Origin: Rhodothermales bacterium
Lineage (GTDB): Bacteria > Bacteroidota > Rhodothermia > Rhodothermales > UBA10348
Direction: 5' to 3'
DNA length: 37,453 bases
Assembly: GCA_017859335.1 (NCBI GenBank)
Contig: JAFMNH010000012.1
Coordinates: forward strand, 1-37,453
Position numbers and translations under genes: made by a program. Each line of letters starts with the position of its first letter. Position 1 is the first letter of the stretch. Of the stretch, positions 8,690-22,251 are shown in pieces. The notes beneath the pieces are model-generated. The model was given only the letters and a program-made list of their open reading frames with translations. It was not told the origin of the DNA and made no database searches.

Positions 8690-10561
8690 CTACCCGTCAG
8701 TTGCATCGATTCCCAACCGGCCGGTGTTGCGGGCGTTGCGCTGGAAGGTGGGCCAGTTTTCCGGATTCAACCCTACAGAGCCTGTTTCAAAGGCGTACAG
8801 ATAGCCGTTTTCCGGTGCAACGAGCAACGCTCCATCGCGGGTTATGGTCAATGGCCCGTCAGCATCGGCTCCGATAAAGTAATGCCACTGGGGCGCATTG
8901 CCGGCATTGATGGCCATCAGGGTCTTATCCGACATGAAGTAGATGATACCATTCGAGTCGATGACCGGCGTCCCAACGTCCGGGGCCACATGTACGAACC
9001 GAAGCCGCGGTGTCAGCGCGTCCACATCTGCATTGAGCGCCATGAGTCCGGTGCTCGTTCCAACGTAGATGGTTCCGTCCGGGCCAACGACCGGTGCGCT
9101 CCGCATCGGTCCCGAAAGGGGATAACTCCACAATACGGAGCCATCCTCCCCCGACACCGCAACCAGCTGGCCGTCGTTGGAAACCACGTATAGGACCACC
9201 ACAATCGTCGTGCGTACGGTTCCGGAAGGAAGAACAACGGAGTACTCACGCTCTACCATGGCCATTCCAACCATGACGCTCCCGATACTGGTGCCTGATT
9301 TCCACAGACGACGACCTTCGGGGTCATAGGCGTAGAGGTGACCATCCGTGGCGCCCACATAGATGGTACGATCCTGACTGATGACCGGGGGGGTCACGAT
9401 CTCAGCATTCGTGACGTCGACCGGCCAGCTTCCCGTGGTCTGTGCCAGGCCATCAAAGGCGCTCACAGCATGCAGTTTTCCGCTCGAGTCGCCAAAATAG
9501 ATGGTTCCATCTGTTCCCAAGGCAGGAGAGGACTGGATACTCGATCCAGTATCATAATGGCTCCCCCAACCCCAGCGACGGTTACCTTCGGAATTGATAC
9601 CGTAGAGTCGGCCGTCCGAGCCTGTGATGAAGACGTCATCGTTGTTTCCCACCATGGGAGAGGAGTCAATGGCTGCGCCCGCTTCGTATTTCCATTTCAG
9701 GGCCCCGTTCGTGGAGAAAGAAAACAGGGAATTATCACTAGACCCCACATAGATGTCGTTGTTGAACCCAACAGCCACTGCGCCATTCACATCACCCGTC
9801 ACTCCGGGCATTTTCCATCGGAGGCTGCCCGGAGAGCCCTCGGTAGCTTCGTCGTTTTCCAGGACCATGATGGTGACAGGCTCGGAGAGGTGGAAGGCAT
9901 CGGGTGCGCTGAAGGCCTTGACCGCCAGGGTGTGTTCTCCCAGACCCAGCTCCGCCGTGTCCAAGTCAAAGAGGAAGATGCCCTCCGAAGCCGGTTCCAC
10001 TTCCGAAGCAACAGGCGTGCCATCAATCAAGAGATCCATGCGCGAGACGGCCTCCTCACCGGGTTCAGCCTGTGCGAAGACACGAACGACCCCCATGACC
10101 TCTTGCTGATCGGCGGGATCCGTAATCCGGGAGCGTGGACCAGGTGTGGCTGGCGCGTTATCGATGCTGATGAGGACCGGCGCGGACAATCCACGTGATT
10201 GGTAGCGATCAAATCCTGTGGCTTCGAGGCGATAGGTACCGTCCTCGAAGTCGGTCGTGTTGAGGCGCAGGTTGTACAGGTCGCCCTCGAGCTCAGTGGC
10301 TCCTGCTTGGACCCCGTTGATGGTGATGGACACGAATGACATCCAATTGCCCTCGCCAAGGGCTTCTGCATCGACACTGATCAGAAGGCTTTCTCCCGCG
10401 ACGGTTGCCTCGGCATAGGGCGCAACGATCTCCAAGCGGGGAGCACGGCTGTCAACGGGGGTTCCAAACAGATCGCATCCGGAGAGGAACAACAGCATGA
10501 GACCCGCTGCGAGTGGCAGAGAGGCCCGGGTGTGGCGTGATGTTCGCATGGCAGTGATCAT
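8690..10561 (-). CDS. Lipoprotein with Ig-like domains and a PQQ-type beta-propeller
   Basis: A predicted lipoprotein of 623 residues. The signal ends in FLSGC with the lipidated Cys29. Two beta-sandwich segments follow (about 42-135 and 145-240), then a beta-propeller from about residue 255 to 610. The propeller is built of repeats such as GTIYFGDSSGKLHAVSA, DDVFITGSDGRLYGIN and GTIYVGTSTGLMALNAD, the usual form of PQQ-like (WD40-like, BamB-type) blades. PQQ binding itself is not implied, and no catalytic dehydrogenase motif is seen. A start at 10549 (MRTSRHTR) would also give a good lipoprotein signal. It is transcribed divergently from the exopolysaccharide-like cluster, with a 359-base shared upstream region, so a link in regulation is possible. 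It probably acts in the periplasm or at the cell surface as a binding or assembly platform. Confidence 0.8.
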   Translation of the reverse strand: MITAMRTSRHTRASLPLAAGLMLLFLSGCDLFGTPVDSRAPRLEIVAPYAEATVAGESLLISVDAEALGEGNWMSFVSITINGVQAGATELEGDLYNLRLNTTDFEDGTYRLEATGFDRYQSRGLSAPVLISIDNAPATPGPRSRITDPADQQEVMGVVRVFAQAEPGEEAVSRMDLLIDGTPVASEVEPASEGIFLFDLDTAELGLGEHTLAVKAFSAPDAFHLSEPVTIMVLENDEATEGSPGSLRWKMPGVTGDVNGAVAVGFNNDIYVGSSDNSLFSFSTNGALKWKYEAGAAIDSSPMVGNNDDVFITGSDGRLYGINSEGNRRWGWGSHYDTGSSIQSSPALGTDGTIYFGDSSGKLHAVSAFDGLAQTTGSWPVDVTNAEIVTPPVISQDRTIYVGATDGHLYAYDPEGRRLWKSGTSIGSVMVGMAMVEREYSVVLPSGTVRTTIVVVLYVVSNDGQLVAVSGEDGSVLWSYPLSGPMRSAPVVGPDGTIYVGTSTGLMALNADVDALTPRLRFVHVAPDVGTPVIDSNGIIYFMSDKTLMAINAGNAPQWHYFIGADADGPLTITRDGALLVAPENGYLYAFETGSVGLNPENWPTFQRNARNTGRLGIDATDG

Positions 10562-10920: not shown

Positions 10921-12549
10921 ATGAACGTATCAGCCGTGAATCCAGTGAATTTTGCTCCGAAGCACTTATTCGGGATCGACGTGATCGACAACGCGTGGGG
11001 TGGTCTCTACCGTGGCGGTTCGTACCTGGTTTATGGCAGGGCGGCCAGCGGCCGTGGCCTGTTGACGCTGATGTTTGCCCACACCGGATCCCGTCTGGGT
11101 GAGTCTACGCTCTTTATTTCCCCGGACCGCCACAAGGACCTGATGATCCAGGCGGCCTCGATCGGATTCAACCTGAAAGAAGCCCACGAAGCCGGCGATG
11201 TGCGGCTGGTGCGGGTACCGCCCCTTTTGAATCTCCAGAGTATGGGAGATGATGGCGTATCCCGCGCGCTGTGGGACCTGGTAACGCTCATTCGGCAGCA
11301 CCGGCCAACACGTCTGGTCATGAACGACTTCATGCCGTTTGTCGCTTTCCGTTCCTATGACCGGTTCCGGACCGAATTCATCCAGTTCCTCGAGCAAATC
11401 GATTCCCTCGACACCACGACCATTCTGGTCATGCCCGAACCGGCCAACGAGCAGTCCGGTCGTGTTATTGAATTCATGGCCAGTCAGATGACGGGATCTA
11501 TCCGCATCGAGGTTGGCGACGAAGGTATCACCTCAACCAAGCGCCGTATCTCACTCGTTCCGCACATCGGGCATATCAAGCGCGAAGTGGTGGATTATTG
11601 GGATCTGGAGAAACTCGTGGCTTCCGCTACGGCGGGCAATGAGTCCGGGGAGGCGGCGCCAAAGCAGCCCTCCGAACCCGAGCCGGACGGTTTCATCTTT
11701 GAACCGAGCTCTATCCAGGGACCACAGGCGGGATTTGGACTGAACTTCGATCCTGACTCTGTTCTGAGCGAAAGCGTATCGCCTGAGACACCCTCTGCCT
11801 CCAATCCGGAGCCACCATCAGCCTCCATCGAAGGCGCATTCCAGCTCGGTGGCCACACCCCTTTCAGTGATGAAGAGGAGTTTCCGGAAATGAATACGGG
11901 GTCAGGTTCGAACGTACCCCCCACGAGTCCACCACCCCCAGCTGCCCCGATTCCCCCGCCCCCGGCGCCGTCATCGCAGTTTGCGTCGCCCGAGCCACCG
12001 GCTCCGCCCGCCACGGCTGCTCCGCTCGGTACGCCTGAGCCAGTCGGGGCAAGCGATGCATCCGGCATGCATGGCGCACATGACGAGAGGCCGGAGGAAG
12101 CAAGCGCCCGGGGAACTACGCAGGCACCCAGCGATGAAAAACCCATTTTCTCCGAGAGGGAAGCCTTTCAGCCCAAGCTTCAAAACGTTTTCAATCGGCG
12201 TTCGGGTTCCGATGAATCATTCCTGCTCTTGGCGCTCAAGATGGATCAGGGCCGGCAGCTCGATGGTTCCGTCGACTTTGATTTCCTGACGGATCTCGTT
12301 CGTGCTGAGCTTGGTCCGGCCGATGACATGCTCGCCATTGCCGAGGCCGAGCGCCTGGTGGTAGTACTCGAAAAACGTCGTGCAGATGACGCGCAAGCCT
12401 TCTTTGCAGGGCTGAAGGATCGGCTGAGCATCGTGAGTCCGCACCATGCGGGCAGCCTTCTCCAATCCGTCTCGGCCATCGTAGTGCCCGATGGGCATCC
12501 GTTTGACGGGGCCTCGGAATTTCTGGACTACGCACTTGAGGGAGCATGA
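10921..12549 (+). CDS. KaiC/RecA-fold protein with altered Walker A fused to a degenerate GGDEF-like domain
   Basis: A 542-residue cytoplasmic protein in three parts. Residues 14-235 follow the KaiC/RadA pattern: FGIDVIDNAWGGLYRGGSYLVYGRAASGRGLL, split here as an N-terminal G(I/L)..LD....GG..G and a P-loop position. The P-loop reads G39-RAAS-G44-R45-G46, so the conserved Lys is Arg and the following Ser/Thr is Gly; the Walker B region is RLVMND (Asp136). Residues about 240-415 are a Pro/Ser/Glu-rich linker with poly-Pro runs near 337-350. Residues 430-542 resemble a GGDEF fold (SFLLLALKMD; ERLVVVLEKRRADDAQAF; SVSAIVVPDG; EFLDYAL), but the GGDEF position reads AEAER and the expected inhibitory-site RxxD reads GPAD. 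I infer a non-catalytic sensor or scaffold for the cluster, loosely comparable to the degenerate GGDEF in PelD. The GGDEF call is tentative; the KaiC-like call is firmer. Confidence 0.7.
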   Translation: MNVSAVNPVNFAPKHLFGIDVIDNAWGGLYRGGSYLVYGRAASGRGLLTLMFAHTGSRLGESTLFISPDRHKDLMIQAASIGFNLKEAHEAGDVRLVRVPPLLNLQSMGDDGVSRALWDLVTLIRQHRPTRLVMNDFMPFVAFRSYDRFRTEFIQFLEQIDSLDTTTILVMPEPANEQSGRVIEFMASQMTGSIRIEVGDEGITSTKRRISLVPHIGHIKREVVDYWDLEKLVASATAGNESGEAAPKQPSEPEPDGFIFEPSSIQGPQAGFGLNFDPDSVLSESVSPETPSASNPEPPSASIEGAFQLGGHTPFSDEEEFPEMNTGSGSNVPPTSPPPPAAPIPPPPAPSSQFASPEPPAPPATAAPLGTPEPVGASDASGMHGAHDERPEEASARGTTQAPSDEKPIFSEREAFQPKLQNVFNRRSGSDESFLLLALKMDQGRQLDGSVDFDFLTDLVRAELGPADDMLAIAEAERLVVVLEKRRADDAQAFFAGLKDRLSIVSPHHAGSLLQSVSAIVVPDGHPFDGASEFLDYALEGA

Positions 12550-12624
12550 TCATCGACCCATGCGGTCGGTAGGTCGGCGGCATGCTGACCCGGACTCGCT
12601 GATGACATCCGCTCAGGAATGCAC

Positions 12625-15600
12625 ATGACGCGCACCTTCCCACATATCTTCTTGATCCTCCTGTTGTTCGGGTGGACACCGAATCAGCTCCTGGCCCAGG
12701 ACCTGGTTGGTCAGCAGATGGCGGTAGATCTGATCGAAGAGGCACGTTACAATGAGGCGATTGTCGTACTCAACGAGATGATTACGCCTCAGTCGCAGGA
12801 TCCCCGCTTGATATTGCTGCGGGCCACCGCGTACGAGGGAAGCGGGGAGTACGAGAAGGCAGCCAGCGATTACGAACGGGTCATCCAGATCAATCCCACG
12901 AGCGAAGATGCCCTGCGAGGTCTTCGCAGGGTCAGGAGCGCCCGAAGTCAACGCCCGGCACCGTCAACCTCTGCCAACGCTGGAATGGCCAGCCTGGAAA
13001 GTATGGGTCAGCTTGTTGCCCTGAACCCGGAGAATCTGGCCTACAGGATCCGCTATGCGGATGCCCTCTATCGACAGAGTCTCTTTGCGCAAGCGAATGA
13101 GCAATTTGCCGAGTATCTGCGTCGTGTTCAGGGGACGCCTGATGTGGTTCAGCGATATCTCATCTCGTTGGCAAATGAGGAAGACAAGTATGAGGTCGGC
13201 GAAACGGTGGCAAGAAACTACACACGCATCTATCCCACCAATGACGATCTGTGGATGCGTTTGGGATACTTCCTCTTGTGGCAAGGAAAGGACGATGATG
13301 CGCGTCGTGCTTGTAACCAATCCATACTGCTCAATCCGGGCAACAAGGATGCACAGGCATGTATGGAAACCTTGGCGCAGCGACCAGCGCAACAAGCGCC
13401 GCAGGAATACCCCATCGATCGCTTGGAGCGTCAGATAGAAGCGGACCCCCAGAACGACAACCTTCGCTTTGAGCTGATCCAGCTCTATATGGAAAATGAC
13501 CGCTATTTCGAGGCGTTTGACAATCTGGTGGCACTCGAGCCGGAATACGGGCGAAGCAGACGTTGGCGGATGCTGTTCCAGGATGTAGACCGTGGATTTA
13601 CCCGCCTGGAGGAGGACGCTCCCATCCTTCCCGTCGACCGACTGACCTACCGGCTGCGGATCGATCCGTCCAACCAGGCCATCCGATACCGTCTGGTGGA
13701 CGAATTGTCGGCTCGGGAGCGGTATGAGGAGGCCTATGCCATTTTGACGGATCCAGCTCATGCCGAACCAAGCGATCCGGGTTATACCCCCCGCGTACTG
13801 AGCATTGCGAGGACCCGCACAGAGCAGGCGCTGGTACGACTGGAGGAGCTGGAAGCTCAGCTTGAGGCATTTCCTGAGGATGAGCGCTCATGGCGCGAGA
13901 TCATTCCCGTCTATACCCGCTTGGACCGGACCGATGAGGTCATAGCGGCCTATGCTGCCCTGCTGGGTTTACGTCCCGGCGACTGGGATCTGCGGCGTGA
14001 CTATATCGATGCCCTGCGTGTCTTTGGATACCCCGAACAGGCGGCTTCCCAGGTCAGCTGGCTGGTGGAAAAGGACCCGGAAAATGTGGATGTCATGCGG
14101 CTTTACGTGTTGGTTCGCTTTGCCGTCGATGCGCTCGATGAGAAAGCAGAGGCCTACTTGCAGGGATTCCTTTCCGATCCTGACCTACGCGATGGTGAAT
14201 TGTTGCTCGAAGCGGCTGGATACAGCATTCGAAGGGGTAACCTCGATCAGGCAGAGGCCCGGATCGAGCGCATCGCAGGCTGGAACGAGCCTCGATGGGA
14301 TAGTCGTTTGAGGGCGTTGAATTACGTACTCGACCGAGCACGCTACATCCAGGCTCAGAATGACCTGCGTGATGCGCTCAATGAAGCGCGCATCCTTGAA
14401 GCCCGACGCGATTACGACGCGGCAGCCGAAGCGTACGAAGCCTACTTCGAGCAGGCAGGAAAGCGGTTGAAGAAAGACGTAGTTGAGTATGCCATCATGT
14501 TATCGTCGGCCGAAAGGTACACCGAGGCCGTTGCCGTACTCCGCTCCGTGGTGGAAGAGCAGTTCGATTACGATGTAGCCAAGGAAATGGGTCGCATCCA
14601 ATCGTATCAGCAGGATTATTCGGGTGCCATCGCCACGATCGATCAGTTGCTTCAGATCAACCCGCGTGATTACGAGTTGGTTTTCCTGAAGGCGCAGTCC
14701 CTACGTGCCCTCGGCTATTACACGGAAGCCCGGGTCCTCTATGGCGATGCCTTGGTCGTGGCAGAGGATTCCGAGGCAATCGAGGAGCGCATCGTAGGTA
14801 TCGATGCCGATGTGCGGTTTGAGTTGGTCCAGTCCGGTGAGTGGGGTGGTCTGGACTACAAGGCGCTCGTTGTGCCAAGTGCAAGCGGTGTACGCTCCCA
14901 GGGCGGTGGTGTAGGATACGACCGTTGGACGCAGGGCATGCGCTCCGAAATCACACTGCCCATTAATACGGCGCTCATCGTTGGGGTCAACTCGCATTTC
15001 ATCAGCGGATCTCGCCGGCTCCTGCCTGGCGCGGAAACCGTGGAGGGTCGCGTAAACCAGGTATATGGCTCTGCCTTCATTGATTTGACACCGCAGGTCC
15101 GTTCTGAGAAGGCTTCTTATTCCAACCGGATCTCAGGTGAAGTCGGTGTCTATGACTACGAGGGGCAGCGCACCGTGCTGTACGGAGGCATACGCTACTG
15201 GCGGCAGGACCAGGGCAGATACTTTGGATCGATGGGTGTCCGGACCGGGGAGGGGGCGTTGGACCTGTGGTCGGCAGGCGGGGGGCAGTTCAACCTGCGT
15301 GTAACACAGTTCGATGCCCAAGCCACCTCCCTGACCATCATGCCGGACTCGGTGCTGTCAGTGTCTGGTGCCATGTCGGTCAATATCATTCGCGACAGTT
15401 TTGGCTCCACGTCAGCTGACAGCGACACCAATCTTGGCTTCAACCTGAATCTTAAGGTGGGCTACAAGGTTGCCGATAATACGTTTGTCGGGATGGAGTA
15501 TTTCCAGCGCTCCTACCGCAGCACGGTGGACATCTATTTCTCTCCCGGCAATTATCAGTCCTACGACCTGTACATGGAGTACGAGAAGGAATTGATCGAG

Positions 15601-15834
15601 GGATCGCCATGGTATGTCAGGGTGTTCGGCTCAGCCGGGCTCATTGCGCGCAGCTCGGGTTTTGTCGGACGCCGCTTCGAGGCTGATTACATCCGGCGTA
15701 TGGGTCGCAACTTTGCACTGACCATCGGCACCACATTGGGGGCATCGACACGGACCCTTGGTAGCGGCGCCGGCGCCTTCCTCGATCAGTATAACACGTT
15801 TTCACTCAGCGCAGCACTCAACTGGACGCTCTAA
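12625..15834 (+). CDS. TPR-rich outer-membrane exopolysaccharide export protein (PgaA/BcsC-like)
   Basis: About 1069 residues. The signal peptide covers roughly the first 23 residues (hydrophobic FLILLLFG, cleavage near LLAQ). Many TPR-like helix pairs follow to about residue 720, such as YNEAIVVLNEMI, YEKAASDYERVIQINP, YFEAFDNLVALEPEYG, YEEAYAIL and YTEAVAVLRSVV. The last 280 residues are alternating amphipathic strands typical of a beta-barrel, ending NTFSLSAALNWTL with a hydrophobic terminal residue. The TPR scaffold plus C-terminal porin is the layout of PgaA, BcsC and PelB, which pass polymer across the outer membrane. I chose ATG 12625 because AGGA lies six bases upstream; ATG 12619 is an alternative. 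It sits between the KaiC/GGDEF-like gene and the synthase. A general TPR barrel protein without a polysaccharide role is less likely given the neighbours. Confidence 0.82.
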   Translation: MTRTFPHIFLILLLFGWTPNQLLAQDLVGQQMAVDLIEEARYNEAIVVLNEMITPQSQDPRLILLRATAYEGSGEYEKAASDYERVIQINPTSEDALRGLRRVRSARSQRPAPSTSANAGMASLESMGQLVALNPENLAYRIRYADALYRQSLFAQANEQFAEYLRRVQGTPDVVQRYLISLANEEDKYEVGETVARNYTRIYPTNDDLWMRLGYFLLWQGKDDDARRACNQSILLNPGNKDAQACMETLAQRPAQQAPQEYPIDRLERQIEADPQNDNLRFELIQLYMENDRYFEAFDNLVALEPEYGRSRRWRMLFQDVDRGFTRLEEDAPILPVDRLTYRLRIDPSNQAIRYRLVDELSARERYEEAYAILTDPAHAEPSDPGYTPRVLSIARTRTEQALVRLEELEAQLEAFPEDERSWREIIPVYTRLDRTDEVIAAYAALLGLRPGDWDLRRDYIDALRVFGYPEQAASQVSWLVEKDPENVDVMRLYVLVRFAVDALDEKAEAYLQGFLSDPDLRDGELLLEAAGYSIRRGNLDQAEARIERIAGWNEPRWDSRLRALNYVLDRARYIQAQNDLRDALNEARILEARRDYDAAAEAYEAYFEQAGKRLKKDVVEYAIMLSSAERYTEAVAVLRSVVEEQFDYDVAKEMGRIQSYQQDYSGAIATIDQLLQINPRDYELVFLKAQSLRALGYYTEARVLYGDALVVAEDSEAIEERIVGIDADVRFELVQSGEWGGLDYKALVVPSASGVRSQGGGVGYDRWTQGMRSEITLPINTALIVGVNSHFISGSRRLLPGAETVEGRVNQVYGSAFIDLTPQVRSEKASYSNRISGEVGVYDYEGQRTVLYGGIRYWRQDQGRYFGSMGVRTGEGALDLWSAGGGQFNLRVTQFDAQATSLTIMPDSVLSVSGAMSVNIIRDSFGSTSADSDTNLGFNLNLKVGYKVADNTFVGMEYFQRSYRSTVDIYFSPGNYQSYDLYMEYEKELIEGSPWYVRVFGSAGLIARSSGFVGRRFEADYIRRMGRNFALTIGTTLGASTRTLGSGAGAFLDQYNTFSLSAALNWTL

Positions 15835-15885
15835 GGCACCTGGTTCGACTCCGCGAGGAATCCGGACGATTGCAGCCGATCACAG

Positions 15886-17382
15886 ATGACGAAAGAAAGC
15901 TCACATACCACGTCCCACCCAGTCGCTGAGTCGGGTGATGGTGGCGCTTTTCATCGTGAGTCGTTCGAGCCGCCGCGTGCCAGTCATGGCAAGGATCCGA
16001 CGACGCCTCAAGAGATGGAGTTGATGCTGAAGCGTCGTGTGTGGCTCTACGGCTCCCTCTCCGTTTTCTTGATTGTGGTCATTTACCTGTTCATGAATGA
16101 TCCGGGTGGATACATCTACCGGCTGACGGGAGATGTGAGCAACCTGCGGCTCAGTGGCTTGATAGTTTATTCGTCCATTGTGGCCTTCGCACTGTTTCTC
16201 TTTTTTGCCATTCTGCGGTATTTCCTGCTGCTGTTCGCTGCGTACCTCAACACGGTCCGGCACACGGTCAGAGCATCCTTCGATGAAGGATTCACGCCGC
16301 CCATCTCAGTGATTGTTCCAGCATACAACGAGGGGGTCTTGCTCGAAGACACGGTTCAGTCGCTGCTGTCGTTGGACTATCCCCACTACGAGATCATTCT
16401 AGTCGATGATGGCTCGACCGATAATACGCGGGAGATTGCGCGATCGATGGTGGGCATCTACGATAACGGGCGCGTGGAAGTGCGTCTGGTCGAAAAGCCC
16501 AACGGCGGAAAGGCTACCGCATTGAATGCGGGCATACAGATAGCGAAGTACGACTTTTTGCTGAACGTGGATGGTGATTCACGTCTGTCCCCGGATACTC
16601 TGCGAAAAACCATCCGGCACTTCACGAATCCGCGCATTGGGGCGGTGGCGGGCAATGTGAAAGTCCTGAATCGAGTAAATTTATGGACCACGCTGCAGGC
16701 ACTCGAATACGTGCAGGGACTCAACATGGCGCGCTCGGCGCAATCCATTCTGCGCCTGGTCAACATCATCCCGGGCCCCCTGGGTCTGTTTCGCAAGGAG
16801 GCCATTGTGGATGCCGGGTGGTACGCATCCGATACATATGCCGAAGATGCTGACCTGACGCTGCAGATTCTTCGGAAGGGATGGCGGGTGGAATATGAGC
16901 CGGATGCCATTTCCTACACAGAGGCGCCAGATACGCTTACAGCATTGCTCAAGCAACGCTATAGGTGGACGCGCGGTATTCTTCAGGCCATTCGCAAGCA
17001 CAGTGAGTTGTTCTTCAATCCCACGATCAACATCAGCGGTACCTTTGTCATGTGGACCATGACTTTTGAGGCACTCATCGGTCCTGTCATGGGTATGTTT
17101 GCGCCGCTGTATTTCATCGTTATCGCCTTGATATTCGACATGAGCTATTTCATCGTTTTATGGTGGCTCTCGTTGACCGTGCTCGACGTAATCGCTGCCC
17201 TGTACTGTGTTGCGGTGGAAAAGGAGGAAGTCCGATTGATTTTCTATTCTCTTATCTCGCGCGTCGTGTTTATTCTGTTCATTGATGTCGCGAAAACATT
17301 CGCGACAATTGAAGAATTCCTGCGGCTCTCGATGGATTGGGGAAAGCTGGAGCGCATTGGCGCTGAACCCAGGACCCGCTGA
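15886..17382 (+). CDS. Membrane family-2 processive glycosyltransferase (PgaC/IcaA/hyaluronan-synthase-like)
   Basis: Predicted inner-membrane polysaccharide synthase of 498 residues that would polymerise a sugar from a nucleotide-sugar donor and push the chain outward. Two TM segments (about 51-70 and 92-120) precede the catalytic domain, and three or four follow (from about 385). All processive GT2 motifs are present: VPAYNEG (144-150), DDGSTD (174-179), the DxD motif DGD (229-231), the acceptor-binding EDAD (320-323), and QRYRW (357-361). A 50-residue hydrophilic N-terminal tail is unusual for PgaC. There is no PilZ domain, unlike BcsA. It lies 51 bases after the TPR-barrel gene. The sugar cannot be told from sequence; poly-GlcNAc-like or another beta-linked aminosugar is plausible but unproven. 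Confidence 0.9.
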   Translation: MTKESSHTTSHPVAESGDGGAFHRESFEPPRASHGKDPTTPQEMELMLKRRVWLYGSLSVFLIVVIYLFMNDPGGYIYRLTGDVSNLRLSGLIVYSSIVAFALFLFFAILRYFLLLFAAYLNTVRHTVRASFDEGFTPPISVIVPAYNEGVLLEDTVQSLLSLDYPHYEIILVDDGSTDNTREIARSMVGIYDNGRVEVRLVEKPNGGKATALNAGIQIAKYDFLLNVDGDSRLSPDTLRKTIRHFTNPRIGAVAGNVKVLNRVNLWTTLQALEYVQGLNMARSAQSILRLVNIIPGPLGLFRKEAIVDAGWYASDTYAEDADLTLQILRKGWRVEYEPDAISYTEAPDTLTALLKQRYRWTRGILQAIRKHSELFFNPTINISGTFVMWTMTFEALIGPVMGMFAPLYFIVIALIFDMSYFIVLWWLSLTVLDVIAALYCVAVEKEEVRLIFYSLISRVVFILFIDVAKTFATIEEFLRLSMDWGKLERIGAEPRTR

Positions 17383-17532
17383 GGGGACAGAATTACAGGC
17401 TGCCGAGGCATTATTTTCCGGCTGTCATCCCGGCAATGCGTCCCCTCGGTATCTTGGCCCATCTTTGCCGTTCGGCACGATTCTTGATGAGAACAAAGGA
17501 GAATCCATTCTTCCTACAACGCATCTTGCACC

Positions 17533-17964
17533 ATGCAGCTGGTACCTATCCTCTCCACGATCATCCTAGTCGGCACCCTGGCCACGTTCATACTGGCGGT
17601 CTCAGCGTACGTGTTGTACAAGATGCGCGAGAAGCAGGCCGCCAACGCACCGGCAGCACCCCCTGCCCAGCAGCAGGAACAGACCCATGTCCTGGTATCT
17701 TCTACCGCGCAACAGGTCGGTTTGCCCGCCTCGCAGTCTGCACAGGCTCCTGTACCGGCATCGATCATGCCTACCCAAACCGTCCCATTCCAGCCATCGG
17801 TGCAGCCACCGGTGCAGGTGCAGAGTGGGGTCCAGCCCGAACCCCAGAAGTCCCTGTTCTGGGAGTACACGGATGAGGGATTTGTGCCCGTACAACCGCG
17901 GGACGAAAGTCAAATGGGGCAGCAGATGGAGGAAGAGCAGGACGACGGATTTGCTTGGCTCTAG
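17533..17964 (+). CDS. Small single-TM protein with Pro/Gln-rich tail, in the polysaccharide cluster
   Basis: A 143-residue protein that I do not recognise. Residues 1-29 form one hydrophobic helix (LSTIILVGTLATFILAVSAYVLY) followed by a basic KMREK, which suggests the tail is cytoplasmic. Residues 35-110 are Pro/Ala/Gln/Val-rich and likely disordered. The C-terminal part has LFWEYTDEGFVPVQP, an acidic stretch (MEEEQDD), and ends GFAWL. It occupies the position of PgaD, the small membrane partner of PgaC, between the synthase and the deacetylase-like genes. There is no sequence-level evidence for PgaD homology. No good Shine-Dalgarno is seen, and the 150-base gap upstream is otherwise empty. 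A synthase-interaction or targeting role is inference from context. Confidence 0.6.
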   Translation: MQLVPILSTIILVGTLATFILAVSAYVLYKMREKQAANAPAAPPAQQQEQTHVLVSSTAQQVGLPASQSAQAPVPASIMPTQTVPFQPSVQPPVQVQSGVQPEPQKSLFWEYTDEGFVPVQPRDESQMGQQMEEEQDDGFAWL

Positions 17965-18012
17965 GCCGAATTTCTGCCAGTCGGCCCATTTCATGACCGC
18001 TGTATCCGGGTT

Positions 18013-20337
18013 ATGCGTAACTGGGAAGTAGAAAAAATCAATGTCCTCTGGTTCTTGACGTTCGGTGTAACCGCCGTTGCGTCGGCTATATTGGTTTATT
18101 TGCTGCTGCTTGAGTCCATTCTTGGTGCCTTCCGGATTCAGGATGCATCACCGGCACTCATGGGTCAGGACAATAGACCGCGGATTGCCCTGCTCAACAG
18201 CGATTACACGAGGGACGTGCATCGCATTGTCTCGGCGGGCGATACGACGACAGCGTGGATGGATCAAACCCTCCTCGATTGGCGCAAGTACCTTATTGAT
18301 TTCAAGCCACGGGTCTCGTTTACCGATATCAGCGACGCTATGCTGGAGGCAGGCGGGCTTCAGGGCTATGACCTGCTCATACTTCCGTCAGCCCGAGCGC
18401 TCAGCGATGTGCAGATCGCGCGTATCCAGGATTTCATGAACCAAGGTGGCAGTGTTTTTGCCACCTGGCAGCCCGGTATCTATCGCGAAGATGGCTCCTG
18501 GAGGGGATGGGACTTCATCGAGGATACGTTCGGAGTCGAATTCCAGGGATTTGCCGACCGGGGCAGCTGGAATTATCGGGTATACTCCGACACGTTTCCC
18601 GGCTTTACCCCCCCGGGCATTTACGTACCCAGACAACTGATGCCATCAGGAGATACGGCGCCCACGACAGCGGAGCCATCAGGCTACTCAGGCAGCAGGT
18701 ACCGGGCCCTTCAGCGTGCGCGTGCGGCTGAGGCTGCCTTCGCTCCCCTGAGTGACTACGTGTGGATGGACTCCCTCGGAGGGGGGCGCCCACGCTCTGA
18801 TTTTGCCATCGCCAATCCCATCGTGGCTCGGATCCGTAATCTGGACGGACGGGAGCGGGAGCAGGATGCGGTTGCCGTTTCCTTTTTCCGGTGGACTGGT
18901 TTTGACCCTGAATACGAGATTCCCTATCCGGAGACGCCTGAGGGAATTCGCCGTATGACCCTCGCTACCGGTACGCCGCTGACGGCGGGGATGCCTCCGG
19001 GATACCGACTCAAAGTCCAGGTGTACAACCAGGGGGTCAAGGTGCGTGTCAAGGAACCGGGCCGCACCAAGGTGGCCGGCTACTGGTATGATTTTGCGAC
19101 GGACTTCCTTTCCGGTGACGACAACCCGGACAATTCGGCTGGATTACTGTACGGATCGTACGGTGCAGGTCGGTTTGTGTGGCTGGGGACTCAGCGGGAG
19201 GCCTTGGGAGTCGGACGCAGTGATCGGGAGGATGCCGAAATTACCGGGAGCGTGTTCTCCAACGCTGTCAGCTACCTGCTGCGCAAACCCATGATCTGGC
19301 TGCACTCGTGGCCTGATGGCAGGGATGGTGCGTTTGTGCTGTCCACGACTATGAGGAATTCGAGGGATGCAGAAGGGGTGGAGCGCATGGCAGATGTGCT
19401 GCAAGAGGAGGGTGTTCGGGCAACCTATTTTGTGGATCCGGATCAGGTACAGTCCCGTCCGGATTTGATTCGCCGACTGCGCCGTATTGGAGAGGTCGGC
19501 TTGCTTGACTCATTGCTTTACGACGGAGACGGTACGCCGCTCGACCAAGGACAGCGTCTGGCGCGGAAGAAGCGCGCGTTGGAGATGATTACAGGCAAAC
19601 AGATACGGGGATATCGATCCACAAGGAGAGGTGAGGTCGGAGACCATACGCTTGAGGGGCTTCAGGATGCCGGTCTGGATTACGTCATCGCTGATTCCGT
19701 GGGGCGTCGCGTCTCACCCTGGATTTTTGGGGGCGAGTTCTCGTCGTTGACACGTATTGGCTCGACGCACCACTCGGACCAGGATATCATGCGTCGGCTT
19801 CAGGGTTCGTCATCCGACTTCCTCGGTGCCTTACTAGAGGCCTCCCTCGACAGGGTCGAGACAGATGGGGGAACCTACAATCTGCAGGTCGATCCCGGCA
19901 TCATGGGTCAGCCGGACAACCTGCCCGTCCTGCGCTCGCTGATCAGGGGAGCCAAGGCACGCAATTTCTGGATTGCTGAGGCGGACTCCGTGATCGACTG
20001 GTGGCGCTTGAAACGTGCCATCAACGTTTCGGTCGACGAACGGAGTCCGTCCCGTCTGTATGTCAACATCTCCAATGACAACGGGGTCGATGCAGAGGAA
20101 GTCACGATCAGTATCGTACTCGGGCGTCCGGTTGCTGAGGTCAGCATTCAGTCTGAGCTCTTCAATGTCCTGCGCCCCCAGTCCAAAGAGATCAGCACCC
20201 CTCCCCATCGTCTCGTGGATAACGGCAACGTGCTCGAACTGGTCATCAAACGGCTCAAGCCGCAGCAGTACCGGATTTATCATATCGACCTTGTGCCGGC
20301 CCGAGTCGAGATCGAATCAGATGTCACTGCACCCTGA
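18013..20337 (+). CDS. Membrane-anchored GATase/ThuA-like plus polysaccharide-deacetylase-like protein (paralog 1)
   Basis: 774 residues. One TM helix at about 12-34 anchors it, with the rest presumably periplasmic. Residues 56-150 look like a glutamine-amidotransferase/ThuA fold (YDLLILPSARALSDVQIARIQDFMNQGGSVFA), and GSYGAGRFVWLG (381-392) lies at the end of that region. Residues about 434-665 resemble a NodB/CE4 deacetylase (VLQEEGVRATYFVDPDQV; RIGEVGLLDSLL; RGYRSTRRGEVG). However, the TFDDG site reads VLSTTMRN and the HxxxH metal site reads GLLDSLL. A C-terminal beta-sandwich-like segment covers 668-765. It is followed after six bases by a shorter paralog. In Pga and Pel systems CE4-like proteins trim polymer in the periplasm; here catalysis by the usual metal site looks lost, so a binding role is more likely. 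HHSDQD at 586-591 might hold an alternative metal site. Confidence 0.72.
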   Translation: MRNWEVEKINVLWFLTFGVTAVASAILVYLLLLESILGAFRIQDASPALMGQDNRPRIALLNSDYTRDVHRIVSAGDTTTAWMDQTLLDWRKYLIDFKPRVSFTDISDAMLEAGGLQGYDLLILPSARALSDVQIARIQDFMNQGGSVFATWQPGIYREDGSWRGWDFIEDTFGVEFQGFADRGSWNYRVYSDTFPGFTPPGIYVPRQLMPSGDTAPTTAEPSGYSGSRYRALQRARAAEAAFAPLSDYVWMDSLGGGRPRSDFAIANPIVARIRNLDGREREQDAVAVSFFRWTGFDPEYEIPYPETPEGIRRMTLATGTPLTAGMPPGYRLKVQVYNQGVKVRVKEPGRTKVAGYWYDFATDFLSGDDNPDNSAGLLYGSYGAGRFVWLGTQREALGVGRSDREDAEITGSVFSNAVSYLLRKPMIWLHSWPDGRDGAFVLSTTMRNSRDAEGVERMADVLQEEGVRATYFVDPDQVQSRPDLIRRLRRIGEVGLLDSLLYDGDGTPLDQGQRLARKKRALEMITGKQIRGYRSTRRGEVGDHTLEGLQDAGLDYVIADSVGRRVSPWIFGGEFSSLTRIGSTHHSDQDIMRRLQGSSSDFLGALLEASLDRVETDGGTYNLQVDPGIMGQPDNLPVLRSLIRGAKARNFWIAEADSVIDWWRLKRAINVSVDERSPSRLYVNISNDNGVDAEEVTISIVLGRPVAEVSIQSELFNVLRPQSKEISTPPHRLVDNGNVLELVIKRLKPQQYRIYHIDLVPARVEIESDVTAP

Positions 20338-20343
20338 GGGAGT

Positions 20344-22251
20344 ATGAAACGCTGGATGGCATATGCAGGCATAGCACTGGTTATTGCGCTCTCTTCGGGA
20401 GGAGCCATGGGTCAGCCCGTGCAGCGCTATGTCTCGTTTGAGCAGCCCTCCAGAAGTGTTGCTGCAGATTTGACACCTTTTTTCAGTACCAACGACCGCA
20501 AGAAAAAGGTCGCGCTTTTCCGCAGTGTGCTTACGGAAGAGCGCACCGGTGCAGGTCAAGACATCATCCCGGTCGCCGTGCAGCAATGGGAGCTGCTGCT
20601 GCTCGGTCTGCGCATCCCTTTTCGCTGGATTGATGAAGGGGATCTGGCCAAAAAGATAGATCCCGAGTTGGCTGTGCTGATCATGCCCTCAGCTGAGCTA
20701 TTGTCCGATCGGCACAAGCGCAGGATTGAGGACTACGTGAAGGATGGCGGAGGCCTGATAGCCTCAGGACGCATCGGATTCTTTGACGATGAAGGTATGC
20801 GGGCAGATAATGCCTGGACGAATGATTTACTGGGTGCAGACGTGGTGGTGGATGTCAAGCAGCAACCCTCCGGATTCATGCATTCCATTGATGGCACCAC
20901 ACCGCTGGGTGATGGGATCCTCCCGGGTTTTCAATTCAACGTAGCGGCGCAAACGCCCCTGGTGCTTTCGCGACCGGGTGTGGCCCGTGCTGGTGGACGG
21001 TTCCTCCCATATGCCCCGACCGATGTCCCCTTTTATGCTGGCCTGACGTCGATCCTCTACCATGAGTACGGTGCGGGACGTGTTGTCTGGTTTGGATTCA
21101 ATCCGCAGGATATCCCGCGACGTCGTGAGGAGCAGGAGAACTATCAGCGCTTGGTTGTCAACACGCTCACATTGCTGGCTCGGGCTACCTCCGTTTCTTT
21201 CGCGCCCTGGCCGGAGGGGAAGCCCATGGCAGTCAGTGTTGCAGCCATGAACGCTGCAGGCTTCGATGCGCTTACCTTTTCAGAGGGGATGGACAACCTG
21301 TTGGCAATTCTTGAGCAGCTCGGCATTCCAGGGAGTTTTTTCCTTTCCTCCAACGAGGTGAGGGTCTTTCCCGAGGTGCTTGAGCGTATGCGTGAGATCG
21401 GGGAGATTGGTTTGACAGCCGACGAGGATGAATTGCTGGTTGAGCAGCCAATGGAGATCCAAGCGGATCGAATCCGTATGGCTCAGACCCAATTGGGCGT
21501 AGGCAAGATTCACGGGGTTTACCCGCCAGCGGGTCTTTACGATGCCAACACCATCCGGGCAATGGAAGAACTTGACGCTGACTACCTCCTTCAGGGGTAT
21601 CAACCGGTCATGGCTCCCCGTCCTGTAGACTGGTGGGATCATGCGGACTACCGGGAAAGGCTTGATTTGGCGGATCTCATGATGGCCCTCGATGTGGACA
21701 TGCCCTTGTTCGTTCCGGGAGAGGAACAGGTGCCCTCCCAAGCCCTCTCAAGGGAACAGGTTGATGCGTTGCCGGACCCTACCCTCATCGTGCCGCTTTC
21801 TGAGGGTATAGCGGCCACTCACATGGAGACCTACGAGCGCATCAAGCAGGCCCAAGGCTACCAGGTGATACCCTATTATCCGGAAACGTATTCTTCCCGC
21901 TCGGAGGCTGCTGCCGATTTCGAGGCAACTCTGATCCGGGCTGAATCAGAGGGGGCATGGATGACAACGCCCTCGGACGCTGTAACATGGTGGGTCCAGC
22001 GCGGGCAAGTGCGCCCGGTCATCGTCTTTCTGGGGGCAAGTGAGATGCATGTCGATTTGGTCAACGACGGTCCCAATGTGGTTGATGGTCTCGTCTTGCA
22101 GCTTCGAGGTCCTCGAGATGCCTATCAGGGAATTCGTATTTCCGGAGTTGAAGGCAGTACGCGCTACGACGCCGAGCGTCAGATGGCGTTGGTGGACCTG
22201 CCGCCCGTAGGACCGGGTACTACCCGAATCGTACTGACCTGGCGTCGATAG
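20344..22251 (+). CDS. Secreted GATase/ThuA-like plus polysaccharide-deacetylase-like protein (paralog 2)
   Basis: 635 residues with a cleavable signal (MKRWMAYAGIALVIAL, cleavage near AMGQ), so it is predicted periplasmic or exported. It repeats the plan of the upstream gene. The GATase-like region has LAVLIMPSAELLSDRHKRRIEDYVKDGGG (matching LLILPSARALSD...NQGG in the neighbour), and YGAGRVVWFG matches YGAGRFVWLG. The CE4-like region has LLAILEQLGIPGSFFLSSNEV and MREIGEIGL, matching the neighbour's VLQEEGVRATYFV and RIGEVGL. TFDDG is replaced by VSVAAMNA, and the HxxxH position reads GLTADED, so the usual metal ligands are absent. A C-terminal beta-sandwich-like segment with PVIVFLGASEMHV follows. 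It is the last gene of the cluster, six bases after paralog 1, and ends convergently with bshB1. The pair may act as a hetero-complex on the polymer; this is inferred. Confidence 0.72.
   Translation: MKRWMAYAGIALVIALSSGGAMGQPVQRYVSFEQPSRSVAADLTPFFSTNDRKKKVALFRSVLTEERTGAGQDIIPVAVQQWELLLLGLRIPFRWIDEGDLAKKIDPELAVLIMPSAELLSDRHKRRIEDYVKDGGGLIASGRIGFFDDEGMRADNAWTNDLLGADVVVDVKQQPSGFMHSIDGTTPLGDGILPGFQFNVAAQTPLVLSRPGVARAGGRFLPYAPTDVPFYAGLTSILYHEYGAGRVVWFGFNPQDIPRRREEQENYQRLVVNTLTLLARATSVSFAPWPEGKPMAVSVAAMNAAGFDALTFSEGMDNLLAILEQLGIPGSFFLSSNEVRVFPEVLERMREIGEIGLTADEDELLVEQPMEIQADRIRMAQTQLGVGKIHGVYPPAGLYDANTIRAMEELDADYLLQGYQPVMAPRPVDWWDHADYRERLDLADLMMALDVDMPLFVPGEEQVPSQALSREQVDALPDPTLIVPLSEGIAATHMETYERIKQAQGYQVIPYYPETYSSRSEAAADFEATLIRAESEGAWMTTPSDAVTWWVQRGQVRPVIVFLGASEMHVDLVNDGPNVVDGLVLQLRGPRDAYQGIRISGVEGSTRYDAERQMALVDLPPVGPGTTRIVLTWRR

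Follow-up and report, generated by a model that had tools for sequence, protein, structure and literature searches.

A conserved six-gene cluster in Rhodothermales is predicted to encode an exopolysaccharide secretion machine with pseudoenzyme subunits

The sequence analysed here, referred to below as the window, is a 37,453-nt stretch of contig JAFMNH010000012.1 from a Rhodothermales bacterium (genome G000, 96.6% complete). It contains a predicted exopolysaccharide secretion operon of six co-oriented open reading frames (ORFs), named A to F, which span positions 10921–22251 of the forward strand with intergenic gaps of 6–150 bp (Table 1). The initial annotation had listed six same-strand genes here, encoding a KaiC/GGDEF-like protein, a protein with TPR repeats and a β-barrel, a GT2 synthase, a small transmembrane (TM) protein and two CE4-like paralogues, and the ORFs, their strand and their domains are as it described.

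Table 1. Genes of the cluster and sequence motifs located within them (aa, amino acids).
Feature	Position	Strand	Description
Gene A	10921..12549	+	542 aa; KaiC/RecA-like aa ~19-236, Pro-rich linker ~240-405, degenerate GGDEF-like domain ~412-540
Degenerate Walker A of A	11035..11058	+	G39-RAAS-G44-R45-G46 (GRAASGRG) vs GxxxxGK[ST]; G39, G44 and R45 invariant in alignment A1
Gene B	12619..15834	+	1071 aa; signal peptide, TPR repeats aa ~33-720, C-terminal outer-membrane barrel-like domain ~740-1071
Gene C	15886..17382	+	498 aa; membrane GT2 polysaccharide synthase; PF13641 E=1.1e-36
Gene D	17533..17964	+	143 aa; single N-terminal TM, Pro/Gln-rich tail
Conserved C-terminal motif of D	17851..17961	+	SLFWEYTDEGFVPVQP ... 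GFAWL; in outlying families F-x-[KR]-[YV]-T-x-E-G-[YF] ... W[RK]
Gene E	18013..20337	+	774 aa; TM anchor aa 11-36, ThuA/GH42M-like alpha/beta ~56-426, CE4-like pseudo-deacetylase ~432-668, beta-sandwich ~669-763
Gene F	20344..22251	+	635 aa; signal peptide, ThuA/GH42M-like domain, CE4-like pseudo-deacetylase aa ~305-550, C-terminal beta domain

The GT2 motifs of C noted in the initial annotation are all intact in the window (VDDGS, VDGDS, EDAD and QRYRW), and alignment of the relatives' proteins shows that DDG, a DGD-type motif, ED[AC]D and QRYRW are kept, with DSD instead of DGD at one locus (L050). The closest NCBIfam model to C is PgaC_IcaA, at 204.6 bits against a cut-off of 422.3; NodC (128 against 550) and CelA (72.9 against 699) are also below their cut-offs, and C was therefore not accepted as a direct orthologue of any of the three. 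B matches many TPR families in Pfam (best E-value 6e-29) and has a conserved strand-rich domain at its C-terminus, which ends in WTL; the barrel region gives a weak match to PF05420 (BcsC_C) in two of 20 relatives (best 8.7e-4) and none in the window protein. C and B are adjacent in the window and in its relatives, and this pairing of a GT2 synthase with a TPR-barrel exporter matches the layout of a synthase-dependent exopolysaccharide system. In D, the TM segment is followed by KMREK, and the C-terminus is predicted to be cytoplasmic. D matches no known family in Pfam or NCBIfam, and is conserved within the window's family and in outlying families.

Both E and F match PF01522 above cut-off (E-values 2e-6 and 4e-6 respectively), and are the only PF01522 matches in the window genome. 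They are paralogous (mutual E-value 7.8e-16), and Pfam gives both a GH42M/ThuA-like stretch (GH42M, E-value 1e-4 in F). A search of 28 E proteins and 17 F proteins for CE4 motifs found no TFDD-type motif and no metal-binding HxxxH or HxxH at the motif position, with chance regular-expression matches elsewhere; a spacing-aware test recovered the motif pair in seven of 14 control CE4 loci and is thus half sensitive, and the alignments show the loss directly. Neither the two metal histidines nor the catalytic-base motif nor the catalytic-acid region has a counterpart in the aligned E and F proteins, and when F is aligned to 3rxz the histidines of 3rxz are likewise unmatched. The CE4 metal motifs are missing in all 45 proteins, and E and F were therefore rejected as ordinary deacetylases. 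This bears out the description of E and F in the initial annotation as CE4-like paralogues without canonical metal residues.

The AlphaFold model of E (mean predicted local distance difference test, pLDDT, 77.8) consists of a TM helix, an α/β domain, a CE4 domain and a β-sandwich. Its best CE4 match in Foldseek/VIA is 3rxz (Z 26.3, root-mean-square deviation (rmsd) 2.4, 235 residues aligned), which identifies the CE4 fold, and it also matches the BA3943 structures 7bkf, 6hm9 and 6hpa. The α/β domain resembles ThuA, IFT52 and GH42 middle domains, with Z of about 17–18.6 for GH42/ThuA-like proteins. All three periplasmic parts (residues 57–763) match PelA (9cgy) with Z 17.4 over 416 aligned residues; the rmsd of 13.3 arises because the domains are placed differently. 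There is no glycoside hydrolase catalytic-domain match to E in Pfam, and the protein starts with the TM helix, followed by the α/β domain.

The N-terminal domain of A matches KaiC in Pfam (PF06745, E-value 1.8e-15), and in the structural model (mean pLDDT 67.2) it matches KaiC/FlaH with Z of about 20, rmsd 2.4–3.0 and approximately 195–209 residues aligned. A nevertheless lacks the active-site residues of a KaiC ATPase, having neither a GxxxxGK[ST] Walker A nor the catalytic glutamates: the catalytic motif of KaiC is FEE, and the corresponding stretch in A reads SPD or xMR, the glutamates being replaced in all relatives. At the Walker A lysine position, 31 of 36 outlying relatives have arginine and five have lysine. 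All five belong to one family, f44, whose members include L119:9077–10336 and L121:8570–9802, with a canonical GKT Walker A. Because these five relatives keep GKT, the loss in A is probably derived.

The C-terminal domain of A is GGDEF-like at an E-value of 0.15 in the window protein. The relatives give weak matches to GGDEF_2 (14 of 23, best 7.9e-5), to PelD_GGDEF (four, best 9.3e-4) and to GGDEF; in our reading of the model, the order of helices and strands would fit a GGDEF palm. A profile search of the PDB with this domain gave no credible match, and the PDB fold search of A bears on the N-terminal domain only, its matches being filled by KaiC chains. No REC domain was seen in A, and there was no match to the Pfam BcsE/GIL family at E-values up to 1.

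The initial annotation drew an analogy with systems controlled by cyclic di-GMP (c-di-GMP), and this does not carry over to the window genome. PF00990 (GGDEF) had no match in six of the 12 genomes tested, all six of which carry A (the window's, G005, G008, G029, G036 and G045), and no PilZ domain was found in any of the 10 genomes tested, the window's included; controls were positive in both cases. Elsewhere, a single strong GGDEF protein occurs in G015, and each of the outlying genomes gives one weaker GGDEF match. The RxxD I-site motif is missing from A in the window, where the residues are G465-P-A-D468; its arginine is present in 12 of 17 members of the order in the C-domain alignment and in none of the six from outside it. 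G008, G029 and G036 carry an RxxD-like pattern in A, yet no GGDEF gene was detected in them. Since there is no detectable GGDEF or PilZ domain in the window genome, and RxxD is missing from A, we rejected c-di-GMP control in the window species as unlikely; it may operate in other lineages.

The order A–F is constant across the window's family, with some loci cut by contig ends. The usual flanks are a divergent PQQ/BamB-like gene and an aldehyde-dehydrogenase (ALDH) gene upstream, and convergent PIG-L and leucyl-tRNA synthetase (LeuRS) genes downstream. In a second family of the order (G029 and G053), A to E are all present, and in G029 F does not follow E. The core A–E is found again in further families of the phylum; in all seven outlying loci that were read, A and E flank B, C and D. 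Within the order, E is present in 24 of 114 genomes. In a sample of 394 genomes of the phylum, A matches 63 and E 52, a few of these being matches to one domain only. Of the 53 genomes with a strong A that were compared, 49 also contain E; in 45 of these the two genes are on one contig, and in every case they are co-oriented with A upstream of E at a distance of 5.4–8.0 kb, while the remaining four are draft assemblies with A and E on separate contigs. Among the genomes compared, E is always accompanied by A. A scan of genome contigs with E gave only one relative, and searches of plasmids gave only generic GT2 proteins for C, one distant deacetylase for E and no match for A.

Relative to a congener, the ratio of nonsynonymous to synonymous differences (pN/pS) is 0.12–0.23 for B to F (0.17 for E and 0.23 for F) and 0.09 for LeuRS, values that are rough as synonymous divergence is near saturation. 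The conserved gene order together with purifying selection indicates that the cluster is not a chance arrangement. Gene order had been set beforehand as one of two tests of the initial annotation, and the genes do stay together, both in the family and in outlying families. For E and F, purifying selection is consistent with a role that is non-catalytic but useful.

Several neighbouring genes may be mentioned here. Throughout the window's family, A is adjoined by a divergent gene (8690–10561, reverse strand) for a lipoprotein-like product with Big_7 and a PQQ/BamB-like propeller; this gene may form part of the system. In G029, a GHL10 glycosyl hydrolase-like gene (L050:13801–15447) follows E in the place of F. 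Two outlying loci have an extra gene between B and C (L123:13639–14925 and L118:12654–13889; 49% identity to each other), which is GDSL/SGNH-hydrolase-like in L123 and may be a polymer acyltransferase.

The locus is partly lost in some genomes. In G004, a congener, only a fragment of F is left, between PIG-L and ALDH (L053:2530–3213), and the rest of the cluster is gone. G032 has A and D side by side (L115:8763–10741) next to PIG-L and LeuRS, without B, C, E and F, and G036 has kept A next to PIG-L and LeuRS, with no E. The machine is thus dispensable, and A, with D, can outlive it; the retention of the pair in G032 hints at a link between A and D. In G036 and G032, long ORFs adjacent to A were considered as new genes and rejected, being the antisense of PIG-L and LeuRS.

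A further feature of the outlying families concerns the product. In 34 of 37 genomes from three of these families, a gene of the cellulase family GH9 lies directly upstream of A, 147–330 bp before its matched stretch. GH9 enzymes mostly cleave β-1,4-glucans, and cellulose operons commonly include a cellulase. The position of GH9 next to A is therefore a hint of a β-1,4-glucan-like polymer. The polymer would most likely be β-linked, and a β-1,4-glucan-like chain is slightly favoured.

Taking these results together, we consider it reasonably probable that the products of the operon form an undescribed subtype of synthase-dependent exopolysaccharide secretion machine, in which E and F are pseudo-deacetylases that guide the chain and A is a pseudo-switch that does not act through c-di-GMP. 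Polymer synthesis and secretion are here predicted from gene anatomy. As judged from its GT2 motifs and TM helices, C would polymerise a nucleotide sugar and pass the chain through the inner membrane. In the periplasm, the chain would be bound by E, which is tethered to the inner membrane, and by the soluble F, through their PelA-like α/β, CE4-like and β-sandwich domains; E and F would not deacetylate it, and would hand it on to B, presumably stabilising a bridge between C and B. The TPR coil and outer-membrane barrel of B would then let the chain out of the cell. A, in the cytosol, would act as a pseudo-ATPase that carries a pseudo-GGDEF tail; by docking on the tail that D extends into the cytoplasm, it may switch or assemble the synthase, much like BcsE together with BcsF.

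These roles, in which A with D sets the synthase and E with F passes the chain to B, are suggested by analogy with the BcsE/BcsF and PgaA/PgaB precedents. BcsE combines a KaiC-like N-terminal domain, whose Walker A is ruined, with a degenerate GGDEF domain; together with BcsF it brings cytosolic parts to the membrane (PMC7439463). The TPR domain of PgaA binds polymer and also PgaB, through the deacetylase domain of the latter (PMC9384988), while the α/β domain of PelA, whose nearest folds are ThuA and IFT52, is suggested to bind sugar or PelB (PMC12022489). With these active sites lost in almost every species and no c-di-GMP signal detectable in the window genome, such a machine would have to work, and be regulated, in another way than the known systems.

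The view in the initial annotation of a related but distinct secretion system is thus supported, with c-di-GMP removed and the polymer predicted from sequence. The losses of the metal and Walker residues are conserved in relatives and are not local mutations. That parts had become non-catalytic, as it put it, is suggested only for A, by the five relatives with GKT; no relative with an active E or F was found.

Several observations weigh against this interpretation. A profile search of the PDB with the barrel of B gave no relevant match. GH9 was not found in the genomes of family f1 that were tested, the window's included; the hint of a glucan stems from distant relatives, several of which have other GH9 genes, and C scores nearest to synthases of the PgaC/NodC type, which would suggest N-acetylhexosamine polymers, and not to cellulose synthases. 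The RxxD-like pattern survives in the A proteins of 12 of the 17 members of the order aligned, and A may have a further role, since it persists by itself in G036 and together with D in G032. The missing motif residues may leave room for an unusual catalytic mechanism in E and F. Finally, the open-licence literature yielded no description of the cluster and no experiment on any member.

The cluster could instead be a divergent member of Pga, Pel or Bcs that has lost parts, and not a distinct type. B is laid out like PgaA, PelB and BcsC, E resembles domains 2–4 of PelA, A has the layout of BcsE and PelD, and the top score of C is to PgaC. These likenesses, however, are divided among three different systems, and none of the genes scores above the cut-off for any named system, so that the initial annotation also passes its second test, that of close homology to a system such as Pga or Pel. 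Pel uses PelF (GT4) with PelG where this operon has a GT2 synthase; E has no glycoside hydrolase domain, and neither PilZ nor a canonical GGDEF is present. The arrangement is moreover kept across distant families and so is not the local decay of a known operon, and we regard this explanation as unlikely.

It is also conceivable that the polymer is still modified, with E and F acting as carbohydrate esterases or transferases through an altered mechanism that needs no metal. Polar residues are conserved in their CE4-like parts (D499 in E; E354, D362, R376, D400 and a PPxG-D loop in F), both genes are under purifying selection, and PelA itself deviates from the CE4 scheme (PMC12022489). Against this stand the absence from the alignments of any counterpart to the metal histidines, catalytic-base motif and catalytic-acid region, and the existence of CE4 pseudoenzymes such as BA3943; we judge such activity to be quite improbable. 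The survival of A alone or with D after other genes were lost would fit a cluster that makes a cell-bound surface glycan or glycosylates a surface component, with A and D also acting apart from polymer export. B and C are nevertheless the standard pair of synthase-dependent polymer export (PMC9384988), and E is always accompanied by A in the genomes compared, making this quite unlikely too.

If the preferred reading of a secretion machine guided by pseudo-deacetylases is right, its implications extend beyond the window. In Pel and Pga, the deacetylase and c-di-GMP steps are viewed as central; a CE4 fold that is under selection without an active site, in genomes with no detectable diguanylate cyclase, would provide a natural test of such domains as physical guides of the polymer, and the lineage also lets one ask how a synthase is switched without c-di-GMP. 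As A and E occur together in 49 genomes of the phylum sample, the cluster would also give many Bacteroidota-type bacteria an identified matrix system. We suggest more tentatively, as a possibility, that these clusters form a widespread undescribed export class whose whole accessory set consists of pseudoenzymes, in which the switch A replaces c-di-GMP control and the paired PelA-like pseudo-deacetylases are non-catalytic polymer chaperones.

The cluster shares features with several known systems and differs from each of them. E has the order of domains 2–4 of PelA (PDB 9CGY; PMC12022489), namely ThuA-like α/β, CE4-like and β-rich, but it lacks the N-terminal hydrolase domain and the metal and catalytic residues, and has an N-terminal membrane anchor. 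The only synthase of the operon is GT2, unlike the PelF (GT4) and PelG of Pel, and the interval between A and E in relatives consists of B, C and D. A resembles BcsE (PMC7439463) in its KaiC-like N-terminal domain, ruined Walker A and degenerate GGDEF domain, and differs in its long proline-rich linker, in having no visible REC domain and in not matching the BcsE family of Pfam. D resembles BcsF as a small protein with one TM segment in the same operon, a likeness of layout only, as D has no family match. Unlike Bcs, the window genome has no detectable c-di-GMP synthase or PilZ domain, and C is below the CelA cut-off. BA3943, a CE4 pseudoenzyme of Bacillus, has like E a CE4 fold whose active site is non-functional, but lacks the other domains of E. 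It is not known to belong to an export operon. NfrBA-YbcH, which makes the NGR polymer in E. coli, is as described (PMC8669469) also a minimal pairing of a GT2 synthase with an outer-membrane protein outside the classical four systems; compared by description only, it differs in that NfrB is under c-di-GMP control through MshEN, and its abstract names neither a CE4-like nor a KaiC-like subunit. PgaABCD shares a TPR-barrel protein, a GT2 synthase, a small TM subunit and a CE4-fold subunit with the cluster; in the cluster, C falls below the PgaC cut-off, E and F have neither an active site (no CE4 metal triad) nor the hydrolase domain of PgaB, and a KaiC-like regulator is added.

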